From the NCBI RefSeq assembly GCF_027492855.1, contig NZ_JAPUDY010000040.1:1-64000 (forward strand): DNA of 64,000 nt. The letters run 5' to 3'. Positions 25,315 through 45,068 of the stretch are shown here, in pieces. Below the pieces are notes generated by a model. It did not search any database. It saw nothing but the letters and a program-made list of their open reading frames with translations, and was not told the DNA's origin. The position numbers and the translations under genes are program-made. Every line of letters starts with the position of its first letter. The stretch's first letter is position 1. The stretch comes from Acidovorax sp. (GTDB lineage Bacteria; Pseudomonadota; Gammaproteobacteria; Burkholderiales; Burkholderiaceae_C).

Positions 25315-25331
25315 AAAAGGGAGTGCGCATG

Positions 25332-30495: not shown

Positions 30496-31728
30496 TCAAG
30501 GCCCTTCGCACCCCTCTCGGCCATCGGCCCGGGCGCGCCACAGCGCTGGGCCGATGCGCCACAGCAGCACCGCGAACGCCGCGCACCAGCCCAGGCCTGC
30601 CGCCATCAGCCACGCCGGGCCGCCGCCCCACCAGGCGGCGCCCGCGCGCACCGCCGTGGCCAACAGCAGCACGGCGGCGGCCAGCGGAATCCAGCGGCTG
30701 GTGTCGGGTGGCAGGCCGCAGTGGGCGCGCCCGGCGATGAAGATCACCGCAAAGATGTTCAGCCCCACCGCGCCCATGGTCAGCAGGTGCCGCCCGGCGC
30801 CCGGTGCACCGCCCGCGCCCAGATGGGCCAGGCCCAGCGCGCCGTAGCCCAGCGCCATGCAGGCATACACCGCATACAGCATCAGCGGTGTGCGCCGCAG
30901 CAGCGCGCGGCCCACATGCCAGTCGCTCATCAGGTGGAACACCGAGGCGCTGGCCGCCAGCGCCAGCCACCCGGCCAACTGCGTGCCGGGCTGCAGAAAC
31001 TCGGCGGCGGTGTACAGCGCGATGCACAGCGTGGCCAGGTGCCGCCGGGGTGGCCGTGCAAGATAAGGTGGCGCACTGGGTGTGACCTGCTCAATGGCGC
31101 GGTTCACGATGCGCATGGAAATGCGGCTCATCGCCACCACGATCAGCAGCATCAACAGCCCCAAGGCCAGGTGCAGCCAGCGCAGGCTCGGCAGGCCGCG
31201 CAGCGCGTCGGCATAAAAGCCCGCCACGGCCACAGCCAGCGCCAGCAGCGCCCACCAGAATGCCGCGTGGCGCCGCCCCGCCGGTGCCCACAGGGGCCGT
31301 GCCAGCACGGCGGCCAGCCCGAGCAGCAGGCCCAGGTGCGCCAACGCTGCCAGCACCAGCGCGGGTGCACCGGCCAGGCCCGAGCCCCAGAAGCCCACGC
31401 GCCCCAGCAGCCACAGCGCCACCAGGGCGCGCAACTGGCCACGCGTGGCGCCGGGTGCACCGGTGAACTCGGGGATGGCGGTGAGCGCAAAGCCCGCCAC
31501 CGCCGCCAGCGCGAAGCCAAACACCAGCTCGTGCACATGCCACACCATGGGGCCACCCGCCACGGGCGGCGGCGGCAGGCCCGCGCCCAGCACCAGCAGC
31601 CACCACAGCACCAGGCCCAGGGCCGAGCCCATGGCCAGCAAGAAGAAAGGGCGCATGCCACACATCCACACCGGGTGCGCGGCCTGCCAGGGAAGGCCGC
31701 GTGAAGAAGATGGTGGGCGCTTCAGCAT
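30496..31728 (-). CDS. nnrS: NnrS-family membrane protein
   Basis: The 410-residue protein has about twelve membrane segments and the NnrS hallmark MVWHVHELVFGFALAAVAGFALTAI (about residues 60-85), with further conserved histidines (LMSDWHVGRALLRR). NnrS is a haem- and copper-containing protein linked to nitric oxide tolerance. Its ATG at 31728 overlaps the stop of the ABC ATPase by seven bases (ATGCTGA), so it is translationally coupled and is the last gene of the minus-strand operon. The frame continues upstream but without conserved sequence. The neighbourhood of a haem-uptake-like system fits a haem-dependent protein. Confidence 0.9.
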   Translation of the reverse strand: MLKRPPSSSRGLPWQAAHPVWMCGMRPFFLLAMGSALGLVLWWLLVLGAGLPPPPVAGGPMVWHVHELVFGFALAAVAGFALTAIPEFTGAPGATRGQLRALVALWLLGRVGFWGSGLAGAPALVLAALAHLGLLLGLAAVLARPLWAPAGRRHAAFWWALLALAVAVAGFYADALRGLPSLRWLHLALGLLMLLIVVAMSRISMRIVNRAIEQVTPSAPPYLARPPRRHLATLCIALYTAAEFLQPGTQLAGWLALAASASVFHLMSDWHVGRALLRRTPLMLYAVYACMALGYGALGLAHLGAGGAPGAGRHLLTMGAVGLNIFAVIFIAGRAHCGLPPDTSRWIPLAAAVLLLATAVRAGAAWWGGGPAWLMAAGLGWCAAFAVLLWRIGPALWRARADGREGCEGP

Positions 31729-32567
31729 GCATCGGCCTCTTGTGTTGCCGGGGCCTGCGCCACCGGCTGCCAGCCGCCCAGCACGGAGGCTGGCGCTACG
31801 GAGGGCGTGTTGCCATGGGGTTCGGGCAGGCCAAACGCCGCGCGCACGGCGGGGTGCTGCTGCAGCTCGGCCGTGCAGCGGTACACCAGGGCGTCGTCGC
31901 GGGCCAGCGCGGCCAGCGGCGGGGTGTAGTGCGCCACGATGCGCCCCGGCGCGGCGGCCATGACGAGCACCGTGTCGGCCAGACGCACGGCCTCCATCAG
32001 GTCGTGTGTGATGAGCAGCACGGCCATGCCCAGCGCGGCCTGGCGTGCCAGCAGCAACTGGTGCAGTTGGCTGCGCAGGCCCACGTCGAGGGCGCTGAAG
32101 GGCTCGTCCATGAGCAGCAGGTCGGGCACCAGCACCAGCGCACGCGCCAGGGCCGCGCGGCTTTGCATGCCGCCCGACAGTTCGGCCGGAAACTGCCGGA
32201 GCGCGGTGGCGGACAGCCCCATCGCCAGCGCTGCCTCGGTGGCGCGCTGGTGACGGGCAGCGCGGTGCACGCCCAGCGCCTTCAGGCCCAGCGCGATGTT
32301 GTCCAGCGTGCCCATCCACGGCAGCAGCCGGGGCTGCTGGAACATCACCGCAGGCTGCGCGAAACTATGCTGGATATGGCCCTGTTGCGGCGCGAGCAGC
32401 CCGGCGCACAGGTGCAGCAGCGTGGTCTTGCCGCAACCGGACGGCCCTACCAGGGCCACGGTGCGGCCTGCGGGCAGGTTAAGGTCGATACCGGCCAGCA
32501 CGGTGGTGGGGCCGAAGGCATGGTGCAGCCCGCGTATCTGCAGGGCGGGTGGGGTGGGGGTCGTCAT
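31722..32567 (-). CDS. ABC transporter ATPase, NitT/TauT type
   Basis: The 281-residue ATPase has Walker A GPSGCGKT (about residues 40-47), a Q-loop near PAVMFQQPRLLPWM, the signature LSGGMQSRAALARAL and Walker B LLLMDEPFSALD, followed by the switch histidine in LLITHDLMEAVRLAD. The VMFQQPRLLPW region and the C-terminal extension are typical of the nitrate/sulfonate/taurine group. It follows the permease by 31 bases and overlaps nnrS. With the permease at 32599 and the Tat-exported binding protein at 40955 it completes one importer. Confidence 0.92.
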   Translation of the reverse strand: MTTPTPPALQIRGLHHAFGPTTVLAGIDLNLPAGRTVALVGPSGCGKTTLLHLCAGLLAPQQGHIQHSFAQPAVMFQQPRLLPWMGTLDNIALGLKALGVHRAARHQRATEAALAMGLSATALRQFPAELSGGMQSRAALARALVLVPDLLLMDEPFSALDVGLRSQLHQLLLARQAALGMAVLLITHDLMEAVRLADTVLVMAAAPGRIVAHYTPPLAALARDDALVYRCTAELQQHPAVRAAFGLPEPHGNTPSVAPASVLGGWQPVAQAPATQEADAC

Positions 32568-32598
32568 GGGGTTTGTGTTTTTCTGAATGCCGAGAGCG

Positions 32599-33384
32599 CT
32601 AGGTTCCTGCGCCCCGCCATCGCTCCAGCTCGCGCTTGAGGGGCTCCAGCAGCGCGTACTCCAGCACCAGCAGGCTGCCGACCACGGCGCAGATCCAGGC
32701 CAGCGATGCGCTGGTGTCCAGGTGCGATCGCGTCACCGCCAGGGCCGCGCCCACGCCGTCGCTGGTGGCCAGCAGTTCGGCCATCACCGCCACCTTCCAC
32801 GACGAGCCCAGTGCCGTGATCCAGGCCGGAAACAGGTAGGCCGCCACGTGTGGCAGGTACAAATCAAACAAGCGCATGCGCCAGGGCAGGCGGTAGGCGC
32901 GGGCCATGTCCTTCAGGTGGTGGTCGAGCGTGCGCGTGCCCTGCAGTGCGCCGATGAAGACTACCGGCAGGCACGCCACGAACACGGTGAACACGGGCGT
33001 GCCGTCACCTGCGCCGAACCACAACATGGCCAGCACCAGCCAGGCGATGGGTGGCATGCCCAGCATCAGCGTGACCCAGGGGCGCGCCATCATCGAGGCG
33101 GTCATCGACAGGCCTGCCAGCAGGCCCAGCGCGCTGCCCACGCCCGCCGCGAGCAGTAGGCCCAGCAAGGCGCGGCGCGCGGTGGTGGCCAGCTCGGGCC
33201 AGGCCGCGCCGGACTCCCACAGCCGCCACAGCGTGGCAAAGGTGGTGAGTGGATCGGGCAGGATCAGCGGGCCGTACACGCCCGCGCCAATGTCCCACAG
33301 CGCCACAAACAGCAGCAGACTGGCCAGTGCGCCCCAGCCGCTCCACAGGTAGGCGGGCACGCCGCGCAGCAGCCGCCACACCAT
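32599..33384 (-). CDS. ABC transporter permease, NitT/TauT type
   Basis: The 261-residue protein has about six membrane segments and the inner-membrane EAA-like loop (LKDMARAYRLPWRMRLFDLYLPHVAAYL...GSSWKVAVMAEL), which is that of the SsuC/TauC/NrtB family. Its ATG shares one base with the stop of the DUF2149 gene (TGATG arrangement), so translation is coupled. The ATPase starts 31 bases later. Confidence 0.9.
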   Translation of the reverse strand: MVWRLLRGVPAYLWSGWGALASLLLFVALWDIGAGVYGPLILPDPLTTFATLWRLWESGAAWPELATTARRALLGLLLAAGVGSALGLLAGLSMTASMMARPWVTLMLGMPPIAWLVLAMLWFGAGDGTPVFTVFVACLPVVFIGALQGTRTLDHHLKDMARAYRLPWRMRLFDLYLPHVAAYLFPAWITALGSSWKVAVMAELLATSDGVGAALAVTRSHLDTSASLAWICAVVGSLLVLEYALLEPLKRELERWRGAGT

Positions 33385-33737
33385 CAGCGCGGGCCCTGCG
33401 GGGCTGCTGCGGGATCGGCAGCGGCACCGGTTTCGGGGACGTAAACCATGGAGCCGTCCTTCATGCGATAGGCCACCCCGGCCTTCTCGCCGTCGCCTTC
33501 ACCGATCTCGCCGCTGGCCTTGTATTTCTCGATCTTCTCGCCACGCTTTTGGATGACCTCCATCGTGGGCTTGCCCGCGTCGGTGATCACGGTGACGTCC
33601 TGCTTGGAGAAGGGGCTGAGCAGCGGATTCTTGGCCACGGTGATGAGCAAAGCTGCAATGATCACCAAAAACACGTCGATGAGGTTGACCACCGACAAGA
33701 TGGGGTCGTCGGCCTCGGTTTCGTCGAGGAACTTCAT
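33384..33737 (-). CDS. DUF2149 protein, ExbD-like
   Basis: The 117-residue protein starts MKFLDETEADDPILSVVNLIDVFLVIIAALLIT. One membrane helix (about residues 17-36) carries an aspartate in NLIDVFLV, in the place and sequence context of the protonatable Asp of ExbD/TolR. The soluble C-terminal part (about 75 residues) has a GKPTMEVIQKRGEKIEKYK stretch. It is the DUF2149 family, which pairs with MotA/TolQ/ExbB proteins next to CobN-like genes. It overlaps the ExbB stop by four bases (ATGA). It likely forms the proton-driven motor for the TonB-dependent receptors; no tonB gene is in the window. Confidence 0.82.
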   Translation of the reverse strand: MKFLDETEADDPILSVVNLIDVFLVIIAALLITVAKNPLLSPFSKQDVTVITDAGKPTMEVIQKRGEKIEKYKASGEIGEGDGEKAGVAYRMKDGSMVYVPETGAAADPAAAPQGPR

Positions 33738-34270
33738 GCCTCGCTCCCGGCTTCGGCCATGTGGCCCGCCGCCGGGGTGCGCACGCCATGGCGTTGCAGC
33801 CACACCAGTTCCTCGGCCAGCCAGCGCCGCTGCACGGAGACCACCCAGAAGGTGATGGCCGCCGCGATCAGCGCCAGGATCACCGCAGCAAAGGCCACGG
33901 CCAGGTTGTCCGACACCTGGCCCAGGTTGCCGCTGGACAGGCCCTTGAGCGCGGGCCCCATGGGGATCATGGTGGCGATCAGCCCCAGCATAGGCGCCAC
34001 GCGGGTGGCGATGCGCGGCAGCTCCAGCAATTGGTGGGCTTTCACATCCAGCTCGTCGGCACTGGCGTCGGGGTGGCGCTGCGCCCATTGCAGCAGGCTG
34101 TGGCCGCGCATGGACGCCTCTTTTTTGCTGGCCTGGCGTTGCCGCCATTGCACGGCAAACATGCCCAGCAGCACAAAGGCATACAAAAACAGTGCCGTGA
34201 TGGCCAACAGGGTGGGCAGCAGAAAGACCTGGCTGGCCTGGTACATCAGGGACTCAAGCAAATGGCTCAC
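33734..34270 (-). CDS. MotA/TolQ/ExbB-type proton channel protein
   Basis: The 178-residue protein has three membrane segments (about 12-36, 90-112, 118-145) and the channel-family stretch RIATRVAPMLGLIATMIPMGPALKGLSSG...DNLAVAFAAVILALIAAAITFWV. It begins at GTG 34270, supported by AGGAG eight bases upstream; no ATG fits better. It overlaps the DUF2149 gene by ATGA. In the Bacteroidetes hmu operon the corresponding gene is hmuU. It should energise outer-membrane transport with the DUF2149 partner. Confidence 0.88.
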   Translation of the reverse strand: MSHLLESLMYQASQVFLLPTLLAITALFLYAFVLLGMFAVQWRQRQASKKEASMRGHSLLQWAQRHPDASADELDVKAHQLLELPRIATRVAPMLGLIATMIPMGPALKGLSSGNLGQVSDNLAVAFAAVILALIAAAITFWVVSVQRRWLAEELVWLQRHGVRTPAAGHMAEAGSEA

Positions 34271-34322
34271 ACGAAAACTCCTGGGTTGGGGGGAACATGG
34301 GGTGCAAAAGGATGGCGCTGTG

Positions 34323-34370
34323 TTTGCTATTTGTTTGCTAGCTACCAGCGCTTATCTGTATTGCGGAAAA
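34323..34370 (+). repeat. Dispersed hairpin repeat, copy 6, overlapping the 3' end of the CobN-like gene
   Basis: TTGCTATTTGTTTGCTAGCTACCAGCGCTTATCTGTATTGCGG keeps the order TGCTATT, TAGCT, AGCGCTTAT of the family, with a degenerate second arm. The CobN-like stop codon (34342-34344) and its last six or so codons lie within it. Confidence 0.7.
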
Positions 34371-37300
34371 GCTGTTTTTGTTTGAATCCACGCCTGCGCT
34401 GCCACCAGCCGCCACCAAGCATGGCAGCGCCCAGCACCAGTGCCACCAGCAGGGTCTGCAGCGGGGGCAGTGCAGGCGCGTCGGGCTGCTCGGCCACCTT
34501 GTCCAGCCGCATGCCGCTGATGGGGGGTGGAGGCGGCGGCGGGGGCGGCGCTGCGGGGGCGGCTTCGGTGGCTGGGGGCGCAGGTGCCGCGGCCGGCGCG
34601 CCAGCGGGCGCTTGCCCCGGCGCCAGGCCGAAGCCCGCAGCGCTCTGCCCCGCGCCCACGTAGCGCTGGAAGGCGGTGTTGTCGGTGCGCACGTCAAAGC
34701 GCTGGGCCAGGTCGCGCCAGCGGTCTTTGAGCTCGGCCACGGTGGCAGCGTCGGCCTGCCAGTAGCCCTGGCGCGCGGCCTCCAGCATGCGCTCGATGTT
34801 CTGCGCCAGCGCGTGTGGGTTGTGCGCCTCGAACCAGCGTTTCAGGCCGAGCTGGTGCTTGTCGCGCACGTACACGTCCACCATCTCCTGCCACTGGTCG
34901 TCGCGCACGATCTCGCGCGCCACCGCCGTCCAGCCCCAGAAGTTGTTGGTGGCGTCCAGCACCTGCAGCGTGCCGGCGTAGCCCTCGTCCATCAGGCCCT
35001 TGATGTAGCCGGGGTGGAACTGCCGCGTGGCCAGCTCCTTGGCGAGGAACTGCGCCGCGCCTTCCACGCGCCCGCTGCCCCCATTGCCGGTCGCGCGCAG
35101 GTTGCTGATGTAGAGCTGCGGCGCCTTGCCGTCGAGGTGCCGCACGGCCAGCCCGATGCCGCCCAGGTATTGGAACGGGTCGTCGGTGGTGAGCATGCCG
35201 TAGGTGTTGGAGCTGCGCGAGAGCACCGCGCCTTCGGTGCCGCGCAGGTGCTCGGCGTAGAGGTTGATCGGCTGGCCGTCCTTGCCCTTGAAGCCGCTGC
35301 CCTGCAGGCTGCCCCAGGTCGATTCATCGGCGCCGTAGGCGAACTGCATGCGCGAGAGATAGAGCTGCGCGAGCTTGCGGTCGCCCTCGGCCTTGCCCTT
35401 CCAGGTGTCGGTGGCGAGCGTGGCGTCGTCCAGGCCGGTGCCGTATTTGCCCGATTCGGACGAGTAGATGCGTGTTTCCGCCGCCGCCTGCGCAGCCTTC
35501 TCGGGCATGCCCTGGGCACGCAGGCGCGCGGCGATGGCGCGGGTGTGTGCGGCCACGGGGTTGGCCTCGTCGCCCGGCCCCTGGGCCTGCGCGGCCAGTT
35601 GCGCGGCCTGGGCAAGGATCTTCATGGTGTTGGGGAAGTGGTCGCGGTACAGGCCCGTGGCCGAGAGCACCACGTCCACGCGCTCGCGCCCCAGCGTGCT
35701 GCGCGGCACGAGCTTCACGCCCGTGACGCGGCCGCCCTCGTCCCACACGGGCTCCACGCCCAGCAGCCACAGGGCCTGCGCTTCGAGCAGGCCCTGGTGG
35801 CGCATGGTCTCCACCGACCACAGCGACACGGCCAGCTTGGCGGGCTGCTTGCCGGTCTGGCGGCGGTGCTCGGCAATGAGCTGCTCGGCAGCCTCTTTGC
35901 CTGCCGCCCAGGCTTGCTGCGTGGGCACGCGCGAGGGGTCGAAGCCGTAGAGGTTGCGACCCGTGGGGTAGGCGTCGGGGTTCTTGATCGGGTCGCCGCC
36001 GTAGGAGGTGGCAAGGTGCCGGCCCGCCAGCACGGTCAGCAGCGCGGGCAGTTCGTTGTCGGCGCCGATGGCGGCATGCCAGGCGCGGGCCTTGGCCAGG
36101 CCTTCGCGCAGCGTGGGCGGCAGGCCCTGCGTGTTTTGCCCTTCCACGACATGGCGCTGCAGCAGGCGGTACGGCGCCGTGGTGGGCAGTTGGCTGTAGT
36201 CGGCCAGCAGGGCTTCGTCCACGTCGGCGGCGGGGGTGCCTGCGTGCAGTGCGGCGGCCTCCCAGAACGGGCGGCCCAGCATCAGCAGCACGGTGGCCAG
36301 GCGATGCTGGGCCTCGGGTGCGCGGCCCAGGGTGTGCAGGCCCAGGGGCTGGGCGGTTTCGGCCAGCTCGTGCAGGTGGGCGTGCAGCACATCGACGAAG
36401 GCGGGGAATTCGGCGCGTGCGCGCTCGCCCGTCCAGCCCATGTCGAGGGCGATGCGCTCCTTGGCGGTGGCGGCCAGCAGGTCGGCCTTGAGCTTTTCTT
36501 TCACCACGCCCTCGTCCTGCGCCAGCCAGGCGTGCAGCAGGTCGTGCATGCGCGTGAGCACCTGGTGCAGCCCTGCGGGCTTGAACGGCGGCGTCTGGTG
36601 GCTGACGATGACGGCGCGGCCCCGGCGCTTGGCTTGCTGGGCTTCGCCGATGTTGTCGGCGATGTAGGGGTAGGCCACGGGCAGGTCGCCCACGGCGAGC
36701 ATGCCGGGGTCAAACACCGAAAGGCCGCGCTCCTTGCCGGGCAGCCATTCCTGGCTGCCATGGGTGCCGAAGTGCACCAGCGCATCGCTGGCTTGCTGCT
36801 CGCGCGCCCACAGGTAGGCGGCCAGGTAGTAGTGCGAGGGCCAGGCGCTGCTGGAGTGGTAGAGCGCTTTTTCTTTGGGTTCCCACTTCTCGCCGCGTGG
36901 CGGCTGCGGCAGGATGGCGATCTTGCCGAGCATGAGGCGCGGTACCACGAACACGGCTTGGTTCCCTTGGCCCAAGACCATCGACGATGCCTCGGGCTCG
37001 CCCCAGCGCTCGCGCAGCGCGGCCTGCACGCCAGCGGGCTGCTGGGCCAGCCAGGCGCGGTAGCGCGCCAGGGGTACGGTGGCGGCCAGGCCGTCGCGCA
37101 GCAGGGGTTCGAGCTCACCCGCGCGGTAGGCGGGCGCGAGCAGGCGCTGCAGCTTGCCGATGAGCTCGGGCTCGGACGGCACCTCGGTGTCGTAGCCCTG
37201 GGCCGCCAGCGCAGCCAGCGTGGTCTGCAGGCTGCGCGGCACGTTGAGGAAGGAGGCCGAGAGGTTCTTCTCGCCCGGCGGATAGTTCCAGAAGAAGACC

Positions 37301-38421
37301 GACAGGCGCTTGTCGCCCGGCGCCTTGCGCTGCAGTGCCACAAGGCGCATCGCCTTGCCGACCACAGCCTTGGCCTGCGCGGGAATGGCGGCGATGGGGC
37401 CGTCGCCCGCGCTTGCGGCCGACGCCACCTGGATGTCGGTCACGCCCGCGTATTCGGCCTGCGCGAGGTAGAAGGGCACGTCCATCAGCGGCACGCCCTG
37501 GGGGTTGGCCTGCCAGTGGGCGGCATCGCCGCGCCGGTAGGTCATGGCCTGCAGCACGGGGATGCCCAGGCGCTCGAACTCGGCGCGGCGCATCTCGGGC
37601 AGCAGCATGATCTGCGTGTTGATGAGCACGTCGGCCAGGGCCGTGCCGCCCGGGCGCAGCATGCGGTCGAGTGCGCCAGTGTCCATCATCGGGCCATAGA
37701 AGGTCAGCGCCACGGCGCCGCTGGCTTCGATGCGCGCGATCAGGTCGTCGATGTACTCGCTTTGCATCGAGGCGATGTACTGCTGGTGCACGGCCAGCGC
37801 CACCACGGGGCGGCGCTTGGCGTCGGCAGGGTCGACACCCGCCCAGCGCAGGTAGGCGAGCGGGTCGGCGAACACCAGGCCCGGTGCGCGGGGGTGATAG
37901 ACGGCTGTCTTGGGGAAGATCACCGGGTCGGGCACGCCCTGTGCGGGTTGGCCCCGCAGATGGGCCGCGAGCGTGGCGAAGAAGCCCTCGAAGTTCTGCC
38001 GCCCGCCGTTGCTGTAGTAGTCGGCCAGGCGCCGCGCCATCGGCTCGGCCAGGCCGCCGCCCCAGGCCGGGCGCACGTCGTAAAGCCAGGCGTGCGGGGC
38101 GCGCAGGCCCGGTAGTGCGCGGGCCAGGTGCTGGCGCACGCTGTCTTGCTGGTAGGTGTCGAAGAACACCATGTCCTGGCCCTGGAACAGCCCGGCATCA
38201 GCGTCGGCCGGGATCTTGTTCAGGTAGCGCATCTGCACCTCGATGCCGTGCGGGCGGGCGATCTCGGCGAGCTGGCGGAACTTGCCCGCTGGCACGTTGG
38301 AGGTGGCGATGAACAGCACCGACGCCGCCTGCGCAGCGCCCCAAGGCAAAAACGCCAGCAGGCACAGGGCCAGCCAGCGGCGCAGCGAATACACGGTGCG
38401 TGCAATGGTTATTTGAATCAA
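34342..38421 (-). CDS. Periplasmic, membrane-anchored CobN-like (HmuS-like) chelatase protein
   Basis: The 1359-residue protein is homologous to the large chelatase subunit CobN: FFWNYPPGEKNLSASFLNVP, HFGTHGSQEWLPGKERGLS, DNIGEAQQAKRRGRAVIVSHQTPPF and FDPSRVPTQQAW are conserved. Unlike cytoplasmic CobN it begins with a signal peptide (RRWLALCLLAFLPWGAAQA, about residues 14-32) and ends with a Pro/Ala-rich linker, a membrane helix (LLVALVLGAAMLGGGWW) and a basic tail. The bulk should therefore lie in the periplasm. The cobalt chelatase partners CobS and CobT are absent. Together with the receptor, ExbB and DUF2149 it matches HmuS, described in Bacteroidetes as a haem dechelatase. Start is TTG 38421 with AGAGG upstream; a GTG at 38394 is an alternative that still keeps the signal peptide. 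Confidence 0.85.
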   Translation of the reverse strand: MIQITIARTVYSLRRWLALCLLAFLPWGAAQAASVLFIATSNVPAGKFRQLAEIARPHGIEVQMRYLNKIPADADAGLFQGQDMVFFDTYQQDSVRQHLARALPGLRAPHAWLYDVRPAWGGGLAEPMARRLADYYSNGGRQNFEGFFATLAAHLRGQPAQGVPDPVIFPKTAVYHPRAPGLVFADPLAYLRWAGVDPADAKRRPVVALAVHQQYIASMQSEYIDDLIARIEASGAVALTFYGPMMDTGALDRMLRPGGTALADVLINTQIMLLPEMRRAEFERLGIPVLQAMTYRRGDAAHWQANPQGVPLMDVPFYLAQAEYAGVTDIQVASAASAGDGPIAAIPAQAKAVVGKAMRLVALQRKAPGDKRLSVFFWNYPPGEKNLSASFLNVPRSLQTTLAALAAQGYDTEVPSEPELIGKLQRLLAPAYRAGELEPLLRDGLAATVPLARYRAWLAQQPAGVQAALRERWGEPEASSMVLGQGNQAVFVVPRLMLGKIAILPQPPRGEKWEPKEKALYHSSSAWPSHYYLAAYLWAREQQASDALVHFGTHGSQEWLPGKERGLSVFDPGMLAVGDLPVAYPYIADNIGEAQQAKRRGRAVIVSHQTPPFKPAGLHQVLTRMHDLLHAWLAQDEGVVKEKLKADLLAATAKERIALDMGWTGERARAEFPAFVDVLHAHLHELAETAQPLGLHTLGRAPEAQHRLATVLLMLGRPFWEAAALHAGTPAADVDEALLADYSQLPTTAPYRLLQRHVVEGQNTQGLPPTLREGLAKARAWHAAIGADNELPALLTVLAGRHLATSYGGDPIKNPDAYPTGRNLYGFDPSRVPTQQAWAAGKEAAEQLIAEHRRQTGKQPAKLAVSLWSVETMRHQGLLEAQALWLLGVEPVWDEGGRVTGVKLVPRSTLGRERVDVVLSATGLYRDHFPNTMKILAQAAQLAAQAQGPGDEANPVAAHTRAIAARLRAQGMPEKAAQAAAETRIYSSESGKYGTGLDDATLATDTWKGKAEGDRKLAQLYLSRMQFAYGADESTWGSLQGSGFKGKDGQPINLYAEHLRGTEGAVLSRSSNTYGMLTTDDPFQYLGGIGLAVRHLDGKAPQLYISNLRATGNGGSGRVEGAAQFLAKELATRQFHPGYIKGLMDEGYAGTLQVLDATNNFWGWTAVAREIVRDDQWQEMVDVYVRDKHQLGLKRWFEAHNPHALAQNIERMLEAARQGYWQADAATVAELKDRWRDLAQRFDVRTDNTAFQRYVGAGQSAAGFGLAPGQAPAGAPAAAPAPPATEAAPAAPPPPPPPPPISGMRLDKVAEQPDAPALPPLQTLLVALVLGAAMLGGGWWQRRRGFKQKQLFRNTDKRW

Positions 38422-38480
38422 ATCTGCCTCTTGCGCTTATTGACAAAGCGCTAATAGCTATTGTTTTAATAGCATTTCAA
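38421..38480 (-). repeat. Dispersed hairpin repeat, copy 7, abutting the start of the CobN-like gene
   Basis: On the minus strand: TGCTATTAAAACAATAGCTATTAGCGCTTTG, then AATAAGCGC and AAGAGGCAGATT. The arms AGCGCTT and AAGCGC pair. The AAGAGG at the end of the repeat is the only ribosome-site-like sequence before the TTG start at 38421, so the repeat may have supplied the translation start. It fills most of the 144-base gap after the receptor gene (stop 38566). Confidence 0.75.
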
Positions 38481-38565
38481 AGCCCTGCACCACACCCCGG
38501 CCCGCGCGTCCCCACCAGAGAAGAGGCTGGGGGTGGTTCAGTTCAGGTTTCCGAGCGCTGGCCCC

Positions 38566-40530
38566 TCAGAAGTCCATGCGCGCACTGGCGAACAGGCGCC
38601 GGGCGCGCTCGGCATAACCGAAGCTGGCGGACTTTTCCGCCAGGTTCACGTTGCCGATGTTGTCCAGCCCGGCTCGCAGCATCAGCTTGCGCTCTCCGCT
38701 GAGCGCGATCTGCTTGCCCACGCTGGCGCTCCACAGCGCGTAGGAAGGCAGGCCCTTGCCATCGGTCGCCGTCTGGCTGCCGATGAACTCGGCCGACACG
38801 CGGGCGCTCCAGCCCGTGGCGTCCTTCCACTCCAGGCGCGATGTGAAGCTGTTCGAAGGCCGGTCGGCCAGGCGCTTGCCGGTGGTCTTGTCGCGTGTGT
38901 TCAGCAGCGTGATGTCGTTGCTCCAGGTCCAATGGCGCGCCATGTCCCACACCACGCCTGCCTCCAGGCCCCGGATGCGCGCTGCGTTGATGTTGTCGTA
39001 CTGGTAGAAGCGGCGTATGCCCTCGGTGCGCACCAGGCGGTAGGTGATGAGGTCTTTCACCTCGGTGTTGAACGCCGTGGCGCGCAGCGACCAGCCGGGC
39101 GCGGCCTGCCAGTCGGCGCCGACTTCAAACGAGTTCGACGACTCGGGCTTGATGTTGCCGTTGCCCGCAAAGGTGTGTGGCCCTTCGGAGCCCACATAGT
39201 TGGGCGAGATCTGCTTGAGCGTGGGCGCCTTGAACGCATGGCCGAAGCCGCCCTTGACCACGAGCGCCGGGCTGGCCTCCCACACCAGGTAGGCGCGCGG
39301 GCTGACTTCGCTGCCGAAGATCTGGTGGTTGTCGGCGCGTAGGCCTGCGGTGAGCATGAGCGACTGGCCCAGTGCCAGCTCGTCCTGCACGAACAAGGCC
39401 TTGTGCGTTGCCGAGTCGCTGCCGTTTTTCAGGCCCGCGTTGCGCAGGGTTTCATCGCGCCACTCACCGCCCACGGTGAGCTGGTGGGCGCCGAGCTTGA
39501 AGCTGGCGTGGCCGTCGAGCACATCGTCCGTCATGTTCTGCGGCCGCGTGGGCGTGACGCCCTTGCTGGCCGAGTTGGTGATGTCGATCTCGCTGCGGTA
39601 GGCGCGCACGCGGCCGCGCCACTGGTCGAAGCGCCCCTCCCAGCCCGCATGGATCTGTGTGCGGTCGATGTCGTAGGTGCTGCGGTAGGCCCCCTTGGTG
39701 GTGGAAGTGGTGTCGTAGAAGCGGCGCTCGTTGTTGCCCGTCCAGCCCGCCTCCAGGGCCTGTTGCGGCGTGATGGCAAAGCGGGCGCTCACGCCCCCGG
39801 CCTGCGAGTGATGGCCCTCGATCTCGGAAACGCGTGGGTCCTTGCGGTCCGCCACGGGGGCAGCGTGCGAGACCTCGCCGTTCACGCGCAGCGTGAGGCG
39901 CTCACCCACCGGTCCGGCGGCAAATACCGAGGCCTTGCCCGTGGGCTCGCCCTCGCTCGAACTGGTGGGGTTGCTGCCCGTGATGCCGACCGAGCCGATC
40001 CAGCGGTCTTTGGGCTGGCGCGTGATCATGTTGACCACACCACCCAGCGCCTCGGAGCCATAGAGCGCCGACATAGGCCCCCGGATGATTTCGATGCGCT
40101 CAATGGCCGACATGGGCAGCCAGCCGTATTGGTAGTCGGAGTGGCCCACCACGTCGTCCGAGGCGCTGATGCGCCGCCCGTCGATCAGCGTGAGCGTGTG
40201 TTTGCCTTCCAGGCCGCGCAGCGCGAGGGTTTTGCGCCCGCCGACCTGGCGCGGCGAGAGCGTGAGGCCGGGCGCGCCGCGCACCGCGTCGAGCAGGTCG
40301 GAGGCGTTGCGCGCCTCCAGCTCCTCGCGGTCGATCACGGTGACGCTGGCGGGCGCGGTGCGTGTTTCGTGCTCGGCCAGTGTGGCAGTCACGGTGACCG
40401 ATGGCAGCGTGCCCGCAGTCGCGGTCTGTGGGGTGGCGGTTTGCGCGGCGGCGCTGCCCGCAGCGCACAGCAGCAGGGCGGCCTGGGCCAGGGGCTTCAG
40501 GCGCGCGAGATGGATGGAGGATCGGTTCAT
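38566..40530 (-). CDS. TonB-dependent receptor (BtuB/HmuR-like)
   Basis: The 654-residue outer-membrane protein has a signal peptide (about 1-30), a TonB box region (LPSVTVTATL), a plug domain (ASVTVIDREELEARNASDLLDAVRGAPGLTL; RGLEGKHTLTLIDGRRIS; IERIEIIRGPMSALYGSEALGGVVNMIT) and a 22-strand barrel ending in aromatic ASARMDF. It is similar in length to BtuB, CirA and haem receptors. The ATG at 40530 overlaps the cupin stop by four bases (ATGA). It lies immediately upstream of the CobN-like gene in the operon, the place occupied by hmuR in the hmu arrangement. The ligand is not proven; haem, another tetrapyrrole or a cobalamin relative are candidates. Confidence 0.9.
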   Translation of the reverse strand: MNRSSIHLARLKPLAQAALLLCAAGSAAAQTATPQTATAGTLPSVTVTATLAEHETRTAPASVTVIDREELEARNASDLLDAVRGAPGLTLSPRQVGGRKTLALRGLEGKHTLTLIDGRRISASDDVVGHSDYQYGWLPMSAIERIEIIRGPMSALYGSEALGGVVNMITRQPKDRWIGSVGITGSNPTSSSEGEPTGKASVFAAGPVGERLTLRVNGEVSHAAPVADRKDPRVSEIEGHHSQAGGVSARFAITPQQALEAGWTGNNERRFYDTTSTTKGAYRSTYDIDRTQIHAGWEGRFDQWRGRVRAYRSEIDITNSASKGVTPTRPQNMTDDVLDGHASFKLGAHQLTVGGEWRDETLRNAGLKNGSDSATHKALFVQDELALGQSLMLTAGLRADNHQIFGSEVSPRAYLVWEASPALVVKGGFGHAFKAPTLKQISPNYVGSEGPHTFAGNGNIKPESSNSFEVGADWQAAPGWSLRATAFNTEVKDLITYRLVRTEGIRRFYQYDNINAARIRGLEAGVVWDMARHWTWSNDITLLNTRDKTTGKRLADRPSNSFTSRLEWKDATGWSARVSAEFIGSQTATDGKGLPSYALWSASVGKQIALSGERKLMLRAGLDNIGNVNLAEKSASFGYAERARRLFASARMDF

Positions 40531-40976
40531 GGGCGCTTTTCCTGGGCCGCAGGAGGCTGGATTTCGGTGAGCTGCAAAACCACGGGTTCCTTCAGCGTGC
40601 GGGCAAAGTGCTTGTGCCCGGCGTGCTCCGAGAACACGCTGCCGGGTGGCAGTGTCTTGAGCGCGGCGGCGTCGAAGCGGTCGCCAAAGCCCAGCAGCAG
40701 CGTGCCGCTGACCACGGTGGCCAGGCGGTAGCCGCGTTCATGCCCATGGGGCGGCAGCTCGGTGTTGGCGGGGATGCGCACCCGCCGCGTCACCACGTGG
40801 TACGCGGGGTCGGCGTGTACCTCAGCCTTCTGAACGGCCTTGCCTTCTTGCCAGGTGATCTGCTCAGGGGTGAGTGCGAATTCTCCACCCCCAGCGGCGA
40901 GGGCAGCGGCAGGGGAGAGGGCGAGCGTGGCCAGCAGGGCGGGCAGCAGCGCGTTCAGGCGATGGCGTTGTGGCAT
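40527..40976 (-). CDS. Secreted cupin-domain protein
   Basis: The 149-residue product has a signal peptide (about 1-28, ending AAALAAGG) and one cupin barrel: PPHGHERGYRLATVVSGTLLLGFGDRFD followed by LPPGSVFSEHAGHKHFA, giving His residues of a metal-binding cupin in the two motifs. It overlaps the receptor start by four bases and the binding protein gene by 22 bases. A periplasmic cupin placed between a binding protein and a receptor suggests a role in binding or presenting a metal or metal complex, but function is not established. Confidence 0.75.
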   Translation of the reverse strand: MPQRHRLNALLPALLATLALSPAAALAAGGGEFALTPEQITWQEGKAVQKAEVHADPAYHVVTRRVRIPANTELPPHGHERGYRLATVVSGTLLLGFGDRFDAAALKTLPPGSVFSEHAGHKHFARTLKEPVVLQLTEIQPPAAQEKRP

Positions 40977-42091
40977 GAAGAATGTCCTTGCAAAGAAGCG
41001 AAAGAACCGCAGTGGCTGGACGCGGGCGCTGCAAGGCTGGCGTGGGGCTGGGCGGGGGAGTGGATGAAACCGGCATCGGGCAGCTTGCCGCCCAGCAAAG
41101 CCGGGTCGCGCGCGTAGAGCTGTTCGAAGAAAAAGGCGATGTCGCTTCGCGCGGCTTGGGCGGGCACGGCGTCGAGTTGGCTGGTGGCGATGGCGTCGGC
41201 CACGGCCTCGGGCGTGAGCAGGTCAATGCGTGCCGCCATCAGGCGTCCGCAGTCCTGTGGATTGGCGCGGCACCACGCCACCGAGCGTGCGTAGGCCTCG
41301 CTGACGGCGGCCAGCACGGCGGGCTGCCCACGCACCGCGCCCACGGCCGCGATGCCCGCTTGTGGCAGGCGGGGTGGGCGTTGGAACACGCGGCCCCATT
41401 CCTGCTGCAGATCGGCGCCCCGGTGCAACTCGGGTGCGATGAGGCCCACAGGAAACGACTGCGTCTTGCGCAGCGCCATCGATACCGCGGGCTCGGACAG
41501 CAGTGCGTGGGATACCCGGCGCGTGATGAGCAACTGCATCGCCTCCATGGGCGTGGGCACGTAGCGCACGCGCAGGTCGCGCCGCACGTCCAGCCCCTGC
41601 TTGGCAGCCAGCAGCTGCAGCATCAGGTCGGGCATGTCGCCGCGAAACGGCACGGCGATCTCCTCGCCGCGGAAGTCCGCAAGCGCCTTGCGCTGCGCAT
41701 CGCGCGTGACGATCCACAGCGCGCCCCAGGTGGCGATGTTCAGCAGCGTCACGCCCGCGCCCCGGTTGTAGAGGTTGGCGGCCACGTTGCTCGGCATGGC
41801 CAGCACGTCGGCCTTGTGGCCCAGGGCCATCACGCGCAGCTGGTCGGGGTCGCGCCACAGGGTGAAGGTGGTGTGCTCGGTGATGCCGCCGAGCGCGTTC
41901 GTCTCGGCCATGTGGATGAGCGGCGCGGAGACGATGGCAGGCGGCCCGGCCAGCGCGATCCGTGGCAGGCGGCCTGCGGCTGCAGCTGCTGCTGCAGCGG
42001 GCGGCGCGGCCCATGTGGACCCGGCCAGCGCCAGGGCGCCGCTTGCTGCCAGCCACTGGCGGCGGCGCAGGTTACCCAAGGAGGAGGTCAT
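40955..42091 (-). CDS. Tat-exported ABC binding protein, NitT/TauT (NMT1-like)
   Basis: The 378-residue protein begins MTSSLGNLRRRQWLAASGALALAG, a twin-arginine signal sequence, so it is probably exported folded. The body (IALAGPPAIVSAPLIHMAE; ADVLAMPSNVAANLYNRGAG; WGALWIVTRDAQRKALADFRGEEIAVPFRGDMPDLMLQLL) is of the NMT1/THI5/SsuA type. The ATG at 42091 is preceded by GAGGGGAG at good spacing; upstream start candidates lack this. It starts 13 bases after the first receptor gene and overlaps the cupin. It must work with the permease and ATPase 8 kb further down the same operon. Its C-terminus is a low-complexity His/Ser/Ala tail. Confidence 0.82.
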   Translation of the reverse strand: MTSSLGNLRRRQWLAASGALALAGSTWAAPPAAAAAAAAGRLPRIALAGPPAIVSAPLIHMAETNALGGITEHTTFTLWRDPDQLRVMALGHKADVLAMPSNVAANLYNRGAGVTLLNIATWGALWIVTRDAQRKALADFRGEEIAVPFRGDMPDLMLQLLAAKQGLDVRRDLRVRYVPTPMEAMQLLITRRVSHALLSEPAVSMALRKTQSFPVGLIAPELHRGADLQQEWGRVFQRPPRLPQAGIAAVGAVRGQPAVLAAVSEAYARSVAWCRANPQDCGRLMAARIDLLTPEAVADAIATSQLDAVPAQAARSDIAFFFEQLYARDPALLGGKLPDAGFIHSPAQPHASLAAPASSHCGSFASLQGHSSCHNAIA

Positions 42092-42104
42092 GGCGGCGCT
42101 CCCC

Positions 42105-44240
42105 TCAGAACTGGTAGTTGACACCGGCCGCAAAGCTGCGGCCCAGGCCCGGCAGGTAGCCCGGCTGTGCGGCCGTGGCGCGGTTGCGGATGGCGTAGCT
42201 GCTGGCGTAGCGGCGGTCGGTCACGTTCTCGGCCTGCAGGTAGGCGGCCCAGGGGCCGTTGCGCCATTCGAGCTTCATGCCCAGCAGCGCATAGGCGTCC
42301 TGCTCGGCGCCTGCGGTGTTGGCGTGGTCGGTGGGCGTGCTGGTGGGCAGCCAGCGCAGGTTGGGCCCAAAGCGCCAGGCCCCCACGCGCCACAGTACTT
42401 CGGCGTTGATGAGGTGGCGTGGCACGCCCGCGATCTGCTTGCCCGCGTATTCGCCGCCCTTGAAGCGGAAATCGCTGTACGTCCACGAACCGCGCCAGTC
42501 GAGCGCACCCATGGCCAGGGGCAGGGTGCCCGACAGGCCCGCTTCCACGCCCTGGTGGCGTGTGCCGCCCGCGTAGTTGTAAGTGCCCACCTTGATGCCG
42601 TCGGCGTCGGTGGTGCTGATGAGTTCGTCGGCCACCTGGCTGCGGTAGACCGCAGCGGTCCAATGCACCGCACCCGTGCCATCGCCCCAGCGGCCCGCGC
42701 CGCCCAGCTCGGCCGTGGTGGCGCGCTGCATGCGCAGGCGGATCAGTTCACTGCGGGCCGTGGCCGGGTTGTTGGGGGCCACGGTGGCGCTCAGGACTTC
42801 CCAGAACGTCGGCGCCTCCTGGCTGCGGCTCAGGTTGGCCCACCAGCGTGTGGTGGGCGTGGGGTTCCAGTTCACGCCCACCTTGGGCGTGGCAAAGGTC
42901 CATTGCTGGTCCAGCCCAGCGCCGCCGGTGCGGCTGGCCGCATCGCGCGACTGGCGACTCCACTGCAGGTGGCCGACCAGCGTCCACTCTGGCGCCATGC
43001 GCCAGTCGGCGGCGGCCAGGGCCTGCAGGTTGTCTGCGGTGAGGTCGTAGGCGCCAAAACGCTGAAGGCGCGTGCCGTTGGCGGGGTTGTTGGCGTACAG
43101 GTCGCGGTCCATGTTGCTGCGCGACCACGACAAGGCCGTGCGCCAGCCCAGCGGCCCGGCCTCGCCCGCCGGGCGGCCGCTGGCCTGCCACTGCGCGCCG
43201 GTGGTGCGGGTGCTGCTGACCGTGTGGCTGGTCTGGTTGTTGAACATGTCGTCCGTGTCTTGCCAGTACACGCCCACTTCCTGGCGCAGGGCCTCGCTGC
43301 CCCAACGCGAGCGGTTGGCCAGGCGCAGTTGCGTGGCCTCGCGGCGCGGGTCGCGCTTGTAGACGTTCAGGAGCTGGTCCTGGGGCGTGTTGCCGTCGCC
43401 CAGCACGCCGCGCGGGTTGGAGGAGATGCGGTCTTTGGGCACCACGGTGGGGATCTGGAATGCCAGGTCTGTCCAACTCACGAAGGTGCGGTTTTCAAAA
43501 CCGCCATCGCCCATGAACCCGATGTTGGCGTGCACCGCGTCGCGGCTGGAGGCGGAATGGTGGCGGTAGCCGTCAAGGCGGTCGCGGCTTGCGCTCAGGC
43601 GCGCGTCCCATTGCTCGCCGCGTGAGCCCACGGCGGCCTGCAGCCCCTCGCGGCCAAAGCTGCCTGCCTCGGCGCGTACGCGGCCACGCTCGTCCAACCC
43701 CGTGAGTGACTGGAAGTCCAGCTCGCCGCCCAGCGTGGTCGCCCCCGGCGTGAGCGTGTTGGCGCCGCGCCGGGCGCTCACCAGCGCAGCGTTGCGCGGC
43801 TCGATCAGGCCGATGATGAAAGAGCCGTCGGCCTCATTGAGCGGCAGGCCGTCCTGTAGCAGCAGCACGCCCCGGTTCACCGGGTTGCTCTGGATGCCCG
43901 AGCCGCGGATCGACAGGCGCGGCTGGTCGGTGCCGCCAAAGAAGTCCTGGATCACGATGCCCGGCTGGTAGTCGAGCGCGTCGCGCAGCGTGGCCAGGCG
44001 GGTTTCCTTCTGGGGCTCGACCAGGTTGGTGCCGCCCGGCACGCGGGCCAGGCGCTGGCGCTCCGCCGCTACCGAGGACCGCACTGGCGAGGCATTGGTG
44101 GTGGTGTCTGCGCGCACCGTCACGGCGGGCAACTCGGCGGCCTGCGGGCTGGTGGATTGGGCGGAGGCGGGCAGCGACACAAAGGCGCCAGCCAGTGCGG
44201 CAACCAGAGCCGTGCGACGGAAGGTGAAATGGGGTGGCAT
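42105..44240 (-). CDS. TonB-dependent receptor, FecA-like
   Basis: The 711-residue outer-membrane receptor has a signal peptide (about 1-28), TonB box area (LPAVTVRADT), a plug (ATLRDALDYQPGIVIQDFFGGTDQPRLSIRGSGIQ; RGVLLLQDGLPLNEADGSF) and a barrel ending GVNYQF. The plug resembles that of FecA and of receptors for metal-chelate complexes. The ATG at 44240 precedes the signal peptide; a longer frame upstream is unrelated. It is the first gene of the operon. The divergent gap to the Crp/Fnr gene holds a Fur-like sequence. Confidence 0.9.
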   Translation of the reverse strand: MPPHFTFRRTALVAALAGAFVSLPASAQSTSPQAAELPAVTVRADTTTNASPVRSSVAAERQRLARVPGGTNLVEPQKETRLATLRDALDYQPGIVIQDFFGGTDQPRLSIRGSGIQSNPVNRGVLLLQDGLPLNEADGSFIIGLIEPRNAALVSARRGANTLTPGATTLGGELDFQSLTGLDERGRVRAEAGSFGREGLQAAVGSRGEQWDARLSASRDRLDGYRHHSASSRDAVHANIGFMGDGGFENRTFVSWTDLAFQIPTVVPKDRISSNPRGVLGDGNTPQDQLLNVYKRDPRREATQLRLANRSRWGSEALRQEVGVYWQDTDDMFNNQTSHTVSSTRTTGAQWQASGRPAGEAGPLGWRTALSWSRSNMDRDLYANNPANGTRLQRFGAYDLTADNLQALAAADWRMAPEWTLVGHLQWSRQSRDAASRTGGAGLDQQWTFATPKVGVNWNPTPTTRWWANLSRSQEAPTFWEVLSATVAPNNPATARSELIRLRMQRATTAELGGAGRWGDGTGAVHWTAAVYRSQVADELISTTDADGIKVGTYNYAGGTRHQGVEAGLSGTLPLAMGALDWRGSWTYSDFRFKGGEYAGKQIAGVPRHLINAEVLWRVGAWRFGPNLRWLPTSTPTDHANTAGAEQDAYALLGMKLEWRNGPWAAYLQAENVTDRRYASSYAIRNRATAAQPGYLPGLGRSFAAGVNYQF

Positions 44241-44262
44241 GGCGAATTTACAAGAAAATGAA

Positions 44263-44277
44263 TGAGATTTATTCGTA
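44263..44277. promoter_or_regulatory. Possible Fur box between the receptor and Crp/Fnr genes
   Basis: TGAGATTTATTCGTA agrees at 11 of 14 informative positions with the 7-1-7 Fur consensus (TGAGAATNATTCTCA). It sits in the gap between the divergent first receptor gene and the regulator gene. Iron control would suit a haem or metal-complex uptake operon, but the match is partial. Confidence 0.35.
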
Positions 44278-44312
44278 TTAGTGGAGAATGCCTGCTGAAA
44301 GAGGAATTGAAA

Positions 44313-45068
44313 ATGACTTTTATCAACGCCGTATCGATCGAACGGAGGGTTGTGCGATCTCCTGGCCCGCGCGCGGCGGCGGCGGTGGAAGACCTGCTGG
44401 CGGCCGCGCACCTGCTGGCCGGATTGCCGCGCGAGGTGCTGGCCACCCTGGCGGCCGACGCCGTGTACCGCAGGTACGGGGGCGGCGACACCTTGTTTTA
44501 TGAAGGGGACGAGGCGCGCCACTGCATGCTTGTGGTGCGGGGCTCTATCGAGGTGCTGCGCTACGACGCCTCGGGCGACGAGCGCATGCTGCATTGCTTC
44601 GAGGCGGGCGAGATGGTGGCCGAGGCGGCCATGTTCATGCCCCATGGCCTGTATCCGATGACGGCGCGCGTGCAGGGCGATACGGAGGTCTGGCGCTTTT
44701 CCCGCAGGGCGGTACGCGAAGCCTGCGAGCGCCACCCCGTACTGGCCCTGCGGCTGCTGGAGTCGCTCAGCCTGCGCCTGTACAAGCGGGTGAACCAGGT
44801 GGACTGGCTCACCAGCAGCAGCGCCCAGCAGCGCGTGGCGGCCTATCTGGTGACGCTGGCCGAACGGCTGGGAGAGGAGCAGGACATCGAACTGCCCACC
44901 AGCCAGCGCCACCTTGCAGCGCACCTGGGCATTCGCGCGGAAACGCTCAACCGCATCCTGGCCGAATGGCAGGCCAAGGGCTGGATCAGCGGCGGGCGCC
45001 GCCTGTGGAGCCTGCAGGACATCACACCTTTGCGCACGCTGGCCGCGCCCGCTGCGCGCGCGTTCTGA
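44313..45068 (+). CDS. Crp/Fnr-family transcriptional regulator
   Basis: The 251-residue protein has a cyclic-nucleotide-like sensor domain (YGGGDTLFYEGDEARHCMLVVRGSIEVLRYDASGDERML; about residues 50-130), a long dimer helix and a C-terminal winged helix (LPTSQRHLAAHLGIRAETLNRILAEWQAKGWI). It lacks the N-terminal cysteine cluster of oxygen-sensing Fnr and is more like the DNR/NnrR nitric-oxide group or a general Crp. ATG 44313 has AGAGGA eight bases upstream; an earlier ATG at 44262 overlaps the Fur-like site. It diverges from the receptor operon that ends with NnrS, so it is a likely regulator of it. Confidence 0.85.
   Translation: MTFINAVSIERRVVRSPGPRAAAAVEDLLAAAHLLAGLPREVLATLAADAVYRRYGGGDTLFYEGDEARHCMLVVRGSIEVLRYDASGDERMLHCFEAGEMVAEAAMFMPHGLYPMTARVQGDTEVWRFSRRAVREACERHPVLALRLLESLSLRLYKRVNQVDWLTSSSAQQRVAAYLVTLAERLGEEQDIELPTSQRHLAAHLGIRAETLNRILAEWQAKGWISGGRRLWSLQDITPLRTLAAPAARAF

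Follow-up and report, generated by a model that had tools for sequence, protein, structure and literature searches.

What does an operon do that unites two TonB-dependent receptors, an ATP-binding cassette (ABC) importer of the NitT/TauT type, a homologue of the chelatases CobN and HmuS, ExbB- and DUF2149-type proteins, a small cupin and the membrane protein NnrS? The question is raised by a 64,000-nucleotide stretch of DNA from Acidovorax sp. (assembly GCF_027492855.1, contig NZ_JAPUDY010000040.1), referred to in full as the window, in which ten genes follow one another on the minus strand and are flanked by a divergent gene for a Crp/Fnr-family regulator. Gene calls and Pfam matches upheld this layout, with positions as first annotated, and seven of the nine gene junctions are overlaps or gaps of at most 31 bases. 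The ten-gene operon is the union of two modules, A and B. Module A comprises a TonB receptor, a binding protein with a signal of the twin-arginine translocation (Tat) type, a permease, an ATPase and NnrS, and module B comprises a TonB receptor, a periplasmic CobN homologue, ExbB and DUF2149. The order receptor, CobN, ExbB, DUF2149 bears out the likeness to hmuR-S-U-V that a preliminary description of the window had pointed out. The same description took the importer and NnrS to be additions to an hmu core, however, and here the relation is the reverse, i.e., module A is a separate conserved operon into which the hmu-like block, together with the cupin, has been inserted; the ABC genes of the window are split because module B lies inside module A.

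Module A recurs as an operon across beta- and gamma-proteobacteria, many of them of genera known for denitrification, and its carriers include Thauera, Azoarcus, Dechloromonas, Zoogloea, Stutzerimonas and Acidovorax, and further Simplicispira, Diaphorobacter, Thiobacillus and Nitrosomonas europaea. In the family, 23 genomes out of 299, spread over 14 of 141 genera, have relatives of the binding protein, and a one-per-species collection has 342; the best 80 of these 342 were taken, and 79 could be mapped (L157 had no gene calls). Genes outside the window were called with a simple caller of our own, and L071/L092 and L075/L095 are the same genomes twice, represented once each in the tree described below, while both members may figure in other listings. 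NnrS is present in 69 of the 79 mapped loci, several of the remaining loci being cut by contig or locus ends, and 54 loci have a module-A receptor of the type TBDRx, 21 one of the type TBDR1.

Module B occurs without module A in many loci, and 19 of the 79 binding-protein loci contain CobN or DUF2149, with A and B combined in three arrangements. Module B is located between the binding protein and the permease (the window, L092, L097, L098, L108, L110 and others), downstream of NnrS (L072, L077, L116, L132, L156), or upstream of the module-A receptor (L155 and L163, with all nine genes consecutive on one strand, and ExbB-DUF2149 in L119 and L137). Conservation of the neighbourhood had been put forward as a check, and both modules and their union indeed extend beyond close strains. 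Within the family, DUF2149 at 92 bits or more, a limit set post hoc after the list had been seen, is present in 11 of the 23 genomes with module A vs 17 of the 276 without (Fisher p = 4e-7), and adjoins module A in 7 of those 11; at any score the figures are 12 of 23 and 31 of 276. The exact ten-gene set including the cupin has no second case among the 79 mapped binding-protein loci. The cupin, initially counted as a part of the system, is there in the window, but elsewhere it is a rare extra (L091, L204, and a weak 64-residue match in L090).

The promoters of module A link it both to iron and to low oxygen or nitric oxide. They were scanned with consensus sequences for Fur, FNR/DNR and Zur, using 60 of 75 module-A upstream regions (gaps of at least 80 and 200 bases were required) and 427 control regions from the same loci, which still include other iron genes and make the comparison conservative. 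When up to one mismatch is allowed, 40 of the 60 regions have an FNR/DNR-like box vs 4.4% of the controls; when up to four are allowed, 44 of the 60 have a Fur-like box vs 13.8%. Both boxes occur together in 28 of 47 TBDRx promoters and 6 of 13 TBDR1 promoters (counts in which related species are uncollapsed), the window's among them, and in none of 1200 shuffles, which preserve base composition only. The spacing between the boxes is 12–14 nt in 31 of the 47 TBDRx promoters and 46–50 nt in 8 of the 13 TBDR1 promoters. The FNR/DNR-like box of the window overlaps the first codons of the regulator gene, and a -10-like sequence lies about 30 nt past its centre, i.e., at class II spacing; the box is also kept in L073, L080 and L104, which have no regulator gene called alongside.

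Among solved structures the regulator finds its best phmmer match in 3dkw (E = 1.3e-24, the next being 2.2e-19), the structure of DNR, the nitric oxide (NO) sensor of Pseudomonas aeruginosa. Furthermore, nosZ is present in 17 of the 23 genomes with module A vs 4 of 27 without (p = 4e-5), the latter being the first listed rather than a random draw. In several genera, module A has genes for FeoB (7 loci by cluster), imelysin, a di-haem oxidoreductase and DUF1513 (9 loci) in its vicinity, one member of each family having been verified with Pfam. The links to low oxygen or NO and to iron that had been suspected are thus corroborated, the former by the FNR/DNR-like box and the DNR-like regulator, the latter by the Fur-like box and the FeoB and imelysin neighbours in relatives. 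To judge from these promoters, expression would require low iron plus low oxygen or NO.

The CobN homologue of module B is a protein of 1350 residues with a signal peptide, a Pro-rich linker and a C-terminal membrane helix; hydrophobic windows near residues 8–30 and 1306–1330 predict, by hydropathy only, an anchoring at both ends as in HmuS. It carries the motifs HFGTHG and TTDDPFQYLGG, the former retaining the HFG(T/A)HG of HmuS with the catalytic His538. When a profile of eight relatives was compared with solved structures, HmuS scored 523 bits, CobN 480 and ChlH 442. The protein also passes the cut-off of NCBIfam NF004644, cobaltochelatase subunit CobN (1382 vs 1248 bits), and could be taken at its name as a true cobaltochelatase serving cobalamin biosynthesis or corrinoid remodelling, a role that would suit the second CobN-ExbB-DUF2149 set found in an apparent cobalamin salvage cluster of the same genome, on contig C55. 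Despite the passed cut-off, a biosynthetic role is unlikely, because neither CbiC/CobH (PF02570) nor CobT (PF06213) has a match in this genome, rated 99.86% complete; the signal peptide and C-terminal anchor likewise argue against it, and no Rfam family matches the window at gathering score, hence no cobalamin riboswitch. We disfavour this assignment and regard it as very improbable. Proteins named cobaltochelatase CobN, even above a curated cut-off, may accordingly have another role, and the name calls for caution.

In a tree of 66 CobNs (quick method, midpoint-rooted, with receptor labels taken from best BLAST matches) the window protein belongs to a clade of 23 rows paired with CirA-like receptors (Shimodaira–Hasegawa-like approximate likelihood ratio test, SH-aLRT, 99), which is nested in a clade of 39 rows (SH-aLRT 100); 14 of the 16 other rows of the latter are haem-labelled, 11 of them tested. 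BLAST labels 18 module-B receptors as haem receptors, and all 14 of those tested pass the cut-offs of both TIGR01785 and TIGR01786. The window CobN thus descends among CobNs paired mostly with haem receptors. Haem-paired and CirA-paired CobNs have HFGTHG or HYGTHG and TTDDPFQYLGG in common, and a Fur-like box (at most four mismatches) is found in 7 of 10 module-B-only loci with a CirA-labelled receptor and the TTDDPFQYLG motif. An attempt to read a His/Glu motif as the mark of haem and Asp/Gln as that of another metal proved wrong, for haem-receptor-paired CobNs carry Asp/Gln and Zur-like boxes go with His/Glu forms.

Gene content, modularity, joint occurrence, promoter boxes, CobN descent and the non-matches to CbiC, CobT and the heme oxygenase family PF01126 were computed directly, and from them we infer the substrate, the direction of the chelatase and the roles of ExbB/DUF2149, NnrS and the importer. 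Our best explanation, put forward tentatively and at slightly less than an even chance, is a two-module system for iron uptake under anoxia or NO, in which a periplasmic dechelatase-like enzyme acts on a metal-tetrapyrrole. The operon would be switched on when iron is short, releasing Fur, and when oxygen is low or NO is present, activating FNR/DNR. Receptor 2 would then carry a metal complex into the periplasm, probably haem or a related iron-tetrapyrrole, and the membrane-tethered CobN-like protein would strip the metal there; the freed Fe2+ could enter through FeoB, which is present in the genome. In keeping with this explanation, the genome gave no match to CbiC, CobT or heme oxygenase (PF01126, the one heme-degrading family covered by the search). 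As a partner energized by protons, ExbB and DUF2149 may serve the CobN protein or the receptors. The DUF2149 profile has a weak likeness to ExbD (E = 4.4e-4, probability 34%, over 29 columns only, with the membrane Asp compared), and we would guess that the pair serves the CobN protein and not just receptors, because it keeps company with CobN on C55, a 14.5-kb contig on which no receptor was called. Receptor 1 and the NitT/TauT-type importer would bring in a second, small ligand. NnrS, which according to work on Vibrio cholerae reportedly shields iron from NO, might guard the iron in the same manner. Haem is a plausible substrate of module B. Of the uptake and processing of haem first proposed for the locus, CobN descent thus speaks in favour, while the CirA-like receptor 2 does not, and haem as the substrate stays at the level of inference.

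A more far-reaching proposal, which we consider doubtful at present, is that denitrifying proteobacteria possess an oxygen-independent, Fur- and FNR/DNR-controlled route to the iron of haem-like tetrapyrroles, with a CobN of a sister family to HmuS, held by a TonB-like Pro-rich tether and a membrane helix, and driven by ExbB-DUF2149 and the proton gradient with no AAA+ ATPases, while NnrS would keep the released iron from NO. Other class I chelatases use AAA+ ATPases (CobST, ChlID), and denitrification enzymes are rich in haem. If the proposal is true, iron supply would be linked to denitrification, NnrS would gain a setting, and a function of ExbB/DUF2149 for CobN-like proteins would become testable.

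Several observations weigh against the two-module explanation. Receptor 2 scores best with CirA among the NCBIfam models, at 322 bits vs a cut-off of 745, and fails the haem receptor models TIGR01785 (190.8 vs 316.85) and TIGR01786 (161.9 vs 323.75); the receptors of L193, L202, L204 and L042 likewise score best with CirA. CirA-labelled receptors are also found on outer branches of the CobN tree (L215, L029, and the DH..E and DNNDAFD classes), which makes the older history of the receptors uncertain, and three inner forks of the tree have a support of only 82–89; our confidence in the favoured explanation is somewhat lower for this. Furthermore, the CobN-like protein is not an HmuS. The LSLDHxxEFMGG of HmuS, with His1209 and Glu1212, is replaced by TTDDPFQYLGG, with Asp and Gln, a DD..Q motif that is the cobaltochelatase form; Met79 and His254, at the haem site of its head and neck, correspond to Pro (Tyr in the window) and Ile, as judged by eye from a profile alignment that is weaker in this head domain than in the remainder; and the Met-rich insertion of HmuS domain IV is lacking, with about 70 vs about 230 residues between aligned blocks and no Met within residues 706–780 of the window protein. 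For lack of these features, membership in HmuS was rejected. None of three sampled genomes from this genus yielded module A; 13 loci, one of them a duplicate, contain copper genes (PCuAC, in some cases alongside DUF2946); and only 8 of 17 haem-labelled loci have a Fur-like box in the stretch examined. In the binding protein of module A no His, Cys, Met or Tyr is invariant among 17 aligned sequences, which makes the binding of a bare metal unlikely; Cys274 and Cys281 are nearly invariant, however, and chelated iron or some small organic compound is the more likely ligand. The literature adds two points: a btuS1 btuS2 double mutant of B. fragilis still formed free protoporphyrin (PMC6460266), and the CobN/DUF2149 operon of P. 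aeruginosa is regulated by Zur (PMC9431628, PMC4542158).

The receptor scores invite an account in which the operon still serves iron uptake, but module B of this lineage has moved away from haem: its receptor would have been swapped for a CirA-like one that brings in a catechol-type ferric siderophore or other iron chelate, and CobN would act on this compound or on another tetrapyrrole. The CirA-like receptors of the window and the four loci named above are in agreement with such a swap, as is the nesting of the CirA-paired clade inside a mostly haem-paired one. The sharing of HFGTHG/HYGTHG and TTDDPFQYLGG by CobNs of both pairings argues the other way, and the account has the further difficulty that class I chelatase homologues are not known to us to take part in siderophore use. 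We consider it unlikely.

For module A, the ligand may be of another kind altogether. The predicted structure of the binding protein (predicted local distance difference test, pLDDT, 85.6) has the SsuA/NrtA/PqqT fold, its nearest structure being 3hn0 from Parabacteroides distasonis, and the protein does not pass the SsuA model (21 vs 163.5). The permease matches SaoP (93 bits), SsuC (76.5 vs 347), NtrB (66 vs 209) and TauC (62 vs 342), all below cut-off, and receptor 1 has PqqU as its best NCBIfam match, at 76 bits far under cut-off, and belongs to no specific family. Module A might thus import an organic cofactor or small anion (pyrroloquinoline quinone-like, sulfonate, nitrate), with the iron signal coming from elsewhere and the modules sharing a promoter only, an arrangement compatible with the other readings. 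It is opposed by the Fur-like boxes at module A itself, by the FeoB, imelysin, di-haem oxidoreductase and DUF1513 genes near it in several genera, and by the commoner module-A receptor TBDRx, which scores best with haem receptors, albeit below cut-off (253–268 vs 317, three tested). We rate it as possible, though on the improbable side.

The last alternative is the acquisition of a different metal (zinc, copper, cobalt or nickel), which the CobN-like protein would remove or insert, as suspected for PA1922–PA1925 of P. aeruginosa. The genes PA1921–PA1925 have Zur sites, and mutation of znuA raised their expression 15- to 147-fold, their role being left open by the authors (PMC4542158, PMC9431628). 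They resemble module B in a receptor annotated as CirA and in CobN-like, ExbB/ExbD-type and DUF2149 proteins, a match by annotation and not by CobN sequence; they differ in belonging to the Zur regulon, and no ABC or NnrS genes are among those listed. Zur-like boxes also precede L040 and L041, and PCuAC/DUF2946 genes are neighbours of both modules. The Zur-like boxes were seen, however, in 2 of 7 loci with DH..E-class CobNs, which form a separate branch of the tree recalling PA1921–PA1925, none of the 60 module-A upstream regions has a Zur match with up to five mismatches, and the window and its relatives have Fur-like boxes. Zinc, raised from PA1922–PA1925, is therefore disfavoured for the branch of the window, and we judge the alternative as a whole to be quite unlikely. 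Copper had been considered because of the PCuAC, DUF2946 and major facilitator superfamily (MFS) neighbours and was dropped: in several Comamonadaceae one and the same site beside the MFS-PCuAC genes holds A only, B only or both, and the copper neighbours are for this reason read as flanking a shared insertion site, perhaps for interchangeable cassettes. In L071, L072, L077, L079, L080, L104, L105, L193, L194, L197 and L202, A, B or both have PCuAC at their side, in most cases along with an MFS gene and in some with DUF2946.

With two-module iron uptake as the favoured explanation, the closest known system is the hmu operon (HmuYRSTUV) of Bacteroidota, with which the window shares a receptor, a membrane-anchored CobN homologue, ExbB and DUF2149. 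HmuS was shown in 2025 to remove iron from haem in Bacteroides (PMC12583661), FeoAB and the CobN-like BtuS proteins are needed there for the use of haem iron (PMC6460266), and the hmu operon is iron-regulated (PMC10434189), as the Fur-like boxes suggest for the window operon. Unlike hmu, the window has no hmuY- or hmuT-like label among its ten genes (labels only, neither having been searched for with a model), its CobN is without the HmuS-specific residues and insertion, its receptor is CirA-like, and it adds an ABC importer, NnrS and an FNR/DNR-like box. The importers SsuABC, NrtABCD and PqqT have the binding-protein fold and the permease/ATPase type in common with module A, which passes no equivalog cut-off among the models compared and, unlike them, is usually accompanied by a TonB receptor and NnrS. 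NnrS of the window is of the same family as the NnrS of DNR, NnrR, NsrR or NorR regulons, for which a DNR-regulated nnrS is named in P. stutzeri (PMC1274295); in the window, however, its gene closes an uptake operon that has a Fur-like box, and the word TonB is absent from the main text of that paper. Literature searches, mainly of open-access papers, returned nothing on the combined operon or on a TonB-receptor/NitT/NnrS operon. The parts are of known kinds; what appears to be new is the way they are combined, the logic of the promoter and a chelatase branch of its own. This proteobacterial branch, related to HmuS, is connected with denitrification, NO and iron through its genomic context and its promoter boxes.

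Table 1 Features of the ten-gene operon and its promoter region in the window
Feature	Positions	Strand	Evidence or remark
Crp/Fnr-family regulator, divergent	44313..45068	+	Pfam cNMP_binding and HTH_Crp_2 on 44385-45068
FNR/DNR-like box TTGATAAAAGTCAT	44313..44326	-	one mismatch to TTGATNNNNRTCAA
-10-like sequence GGCATTCTC	44284..44292	-	inferred promoter
Fur-like box AATACGAATAAATCTCATT, before receptor 1	44261..44279	-	
TonB-dependent receptor 1 (module A), 711 residues	42105..44240	-	Pfam barrel 119 bits and Plug
Binding protein (module A), Tat-like signal (by eye), NMT1/SsuA/NrtA fold	40955..42091	-	
Small secreted cupin	40527..40976	-	Pfam Cupin_1 20.3 bits, below cut-off
TonB-dependent receptor 2 (module B), CirA-like below cut-off	38566..40530	-	
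Copy of genome-wide repeat, in the gap between receptor 2 and CobN; outside the system	38433..38461	-	
Class I chelatase homologue (CobN/HmuS superfamily), predicted periplasmic	34342..38394	-	PF02514 964 bits
ExbB/MotA/TolQ-like protein	33734..34270	-	PF01618 31 bits
DUF2149, single membrane helix with invariant Asp resembling ExbD	33384..33737	-	PF09919 99 bits
ABC permease, NitT/TauT type (module A)	32599..33384	-	
ABC ATPase (module A)	31722..32567	-	
NnrS membrane protein (module A)	30496..31728	-	PF05940 256 bits; start separately checked

The gap before the CobN homologue measures 144 or 171 bases and contains one copy of the repeat ATAGCTnnTnGCGCTTnnnnnATAAGCGC, which has 197 forward and 227 reverse matches in the genome with at most two mismatches (palindromic sites may be counted twice) and none for a reversed control. 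Apart from the copy at 38433-38461 the window holds six further matches, and the repeat is not special to the operon because the genome has hundreds of copies. Upstream of receptor 2, a conserved leader GCAGCC[GA]CCGCCACCTGG lies 34–128 nt before the called start in L075/L095, L076, L078, L097, L098, L099, L100, L103, L107, L108 and L110, and a different one (CGTCCAGCCAC..) is found in L072, L077, L071 and the window; neither matched Rfam in the loci searched. In L035 and L217 the palindrome ATGCGACA..TGTCGCAT, unlike the Fur and Zur patterns used, precedes the receptor of DH..E CobN operons.

The CobN-ExbB-DUF2149 set on contig C55 (L031:4373-9359) also has a signal peptide, and its neighbours include a BtuC-like protein (NCBIfam, below cut-off) and CobU/CobO-like proteins; the names FeoA, CobU and CobO for neighbouring genes are presumptive, having been assigned by eye. 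As the genome has no CbiC/CobT match, this set raises the question of corrinoid demetallation or remetallation. A divergent CobN class in L045 and L046 has DNNDAFDYLGG, with H[VI]GRHSTY replacing HFGTHG, and adjoins cobalamin-type genes (by eye) as well as ExbB and a weak DUF2149. In the module-A loci L082-L084 and L088, a protein of about 200 residues is encoded beside or near NnrS, and the L082 copy matches FmdE. Elsewhere in the window, the open reading frames 19985-20476 (163 residues) and 25329-26492 have nearly identical N-termini, the former being perhaps a truncated duplicate, as judged by eye.

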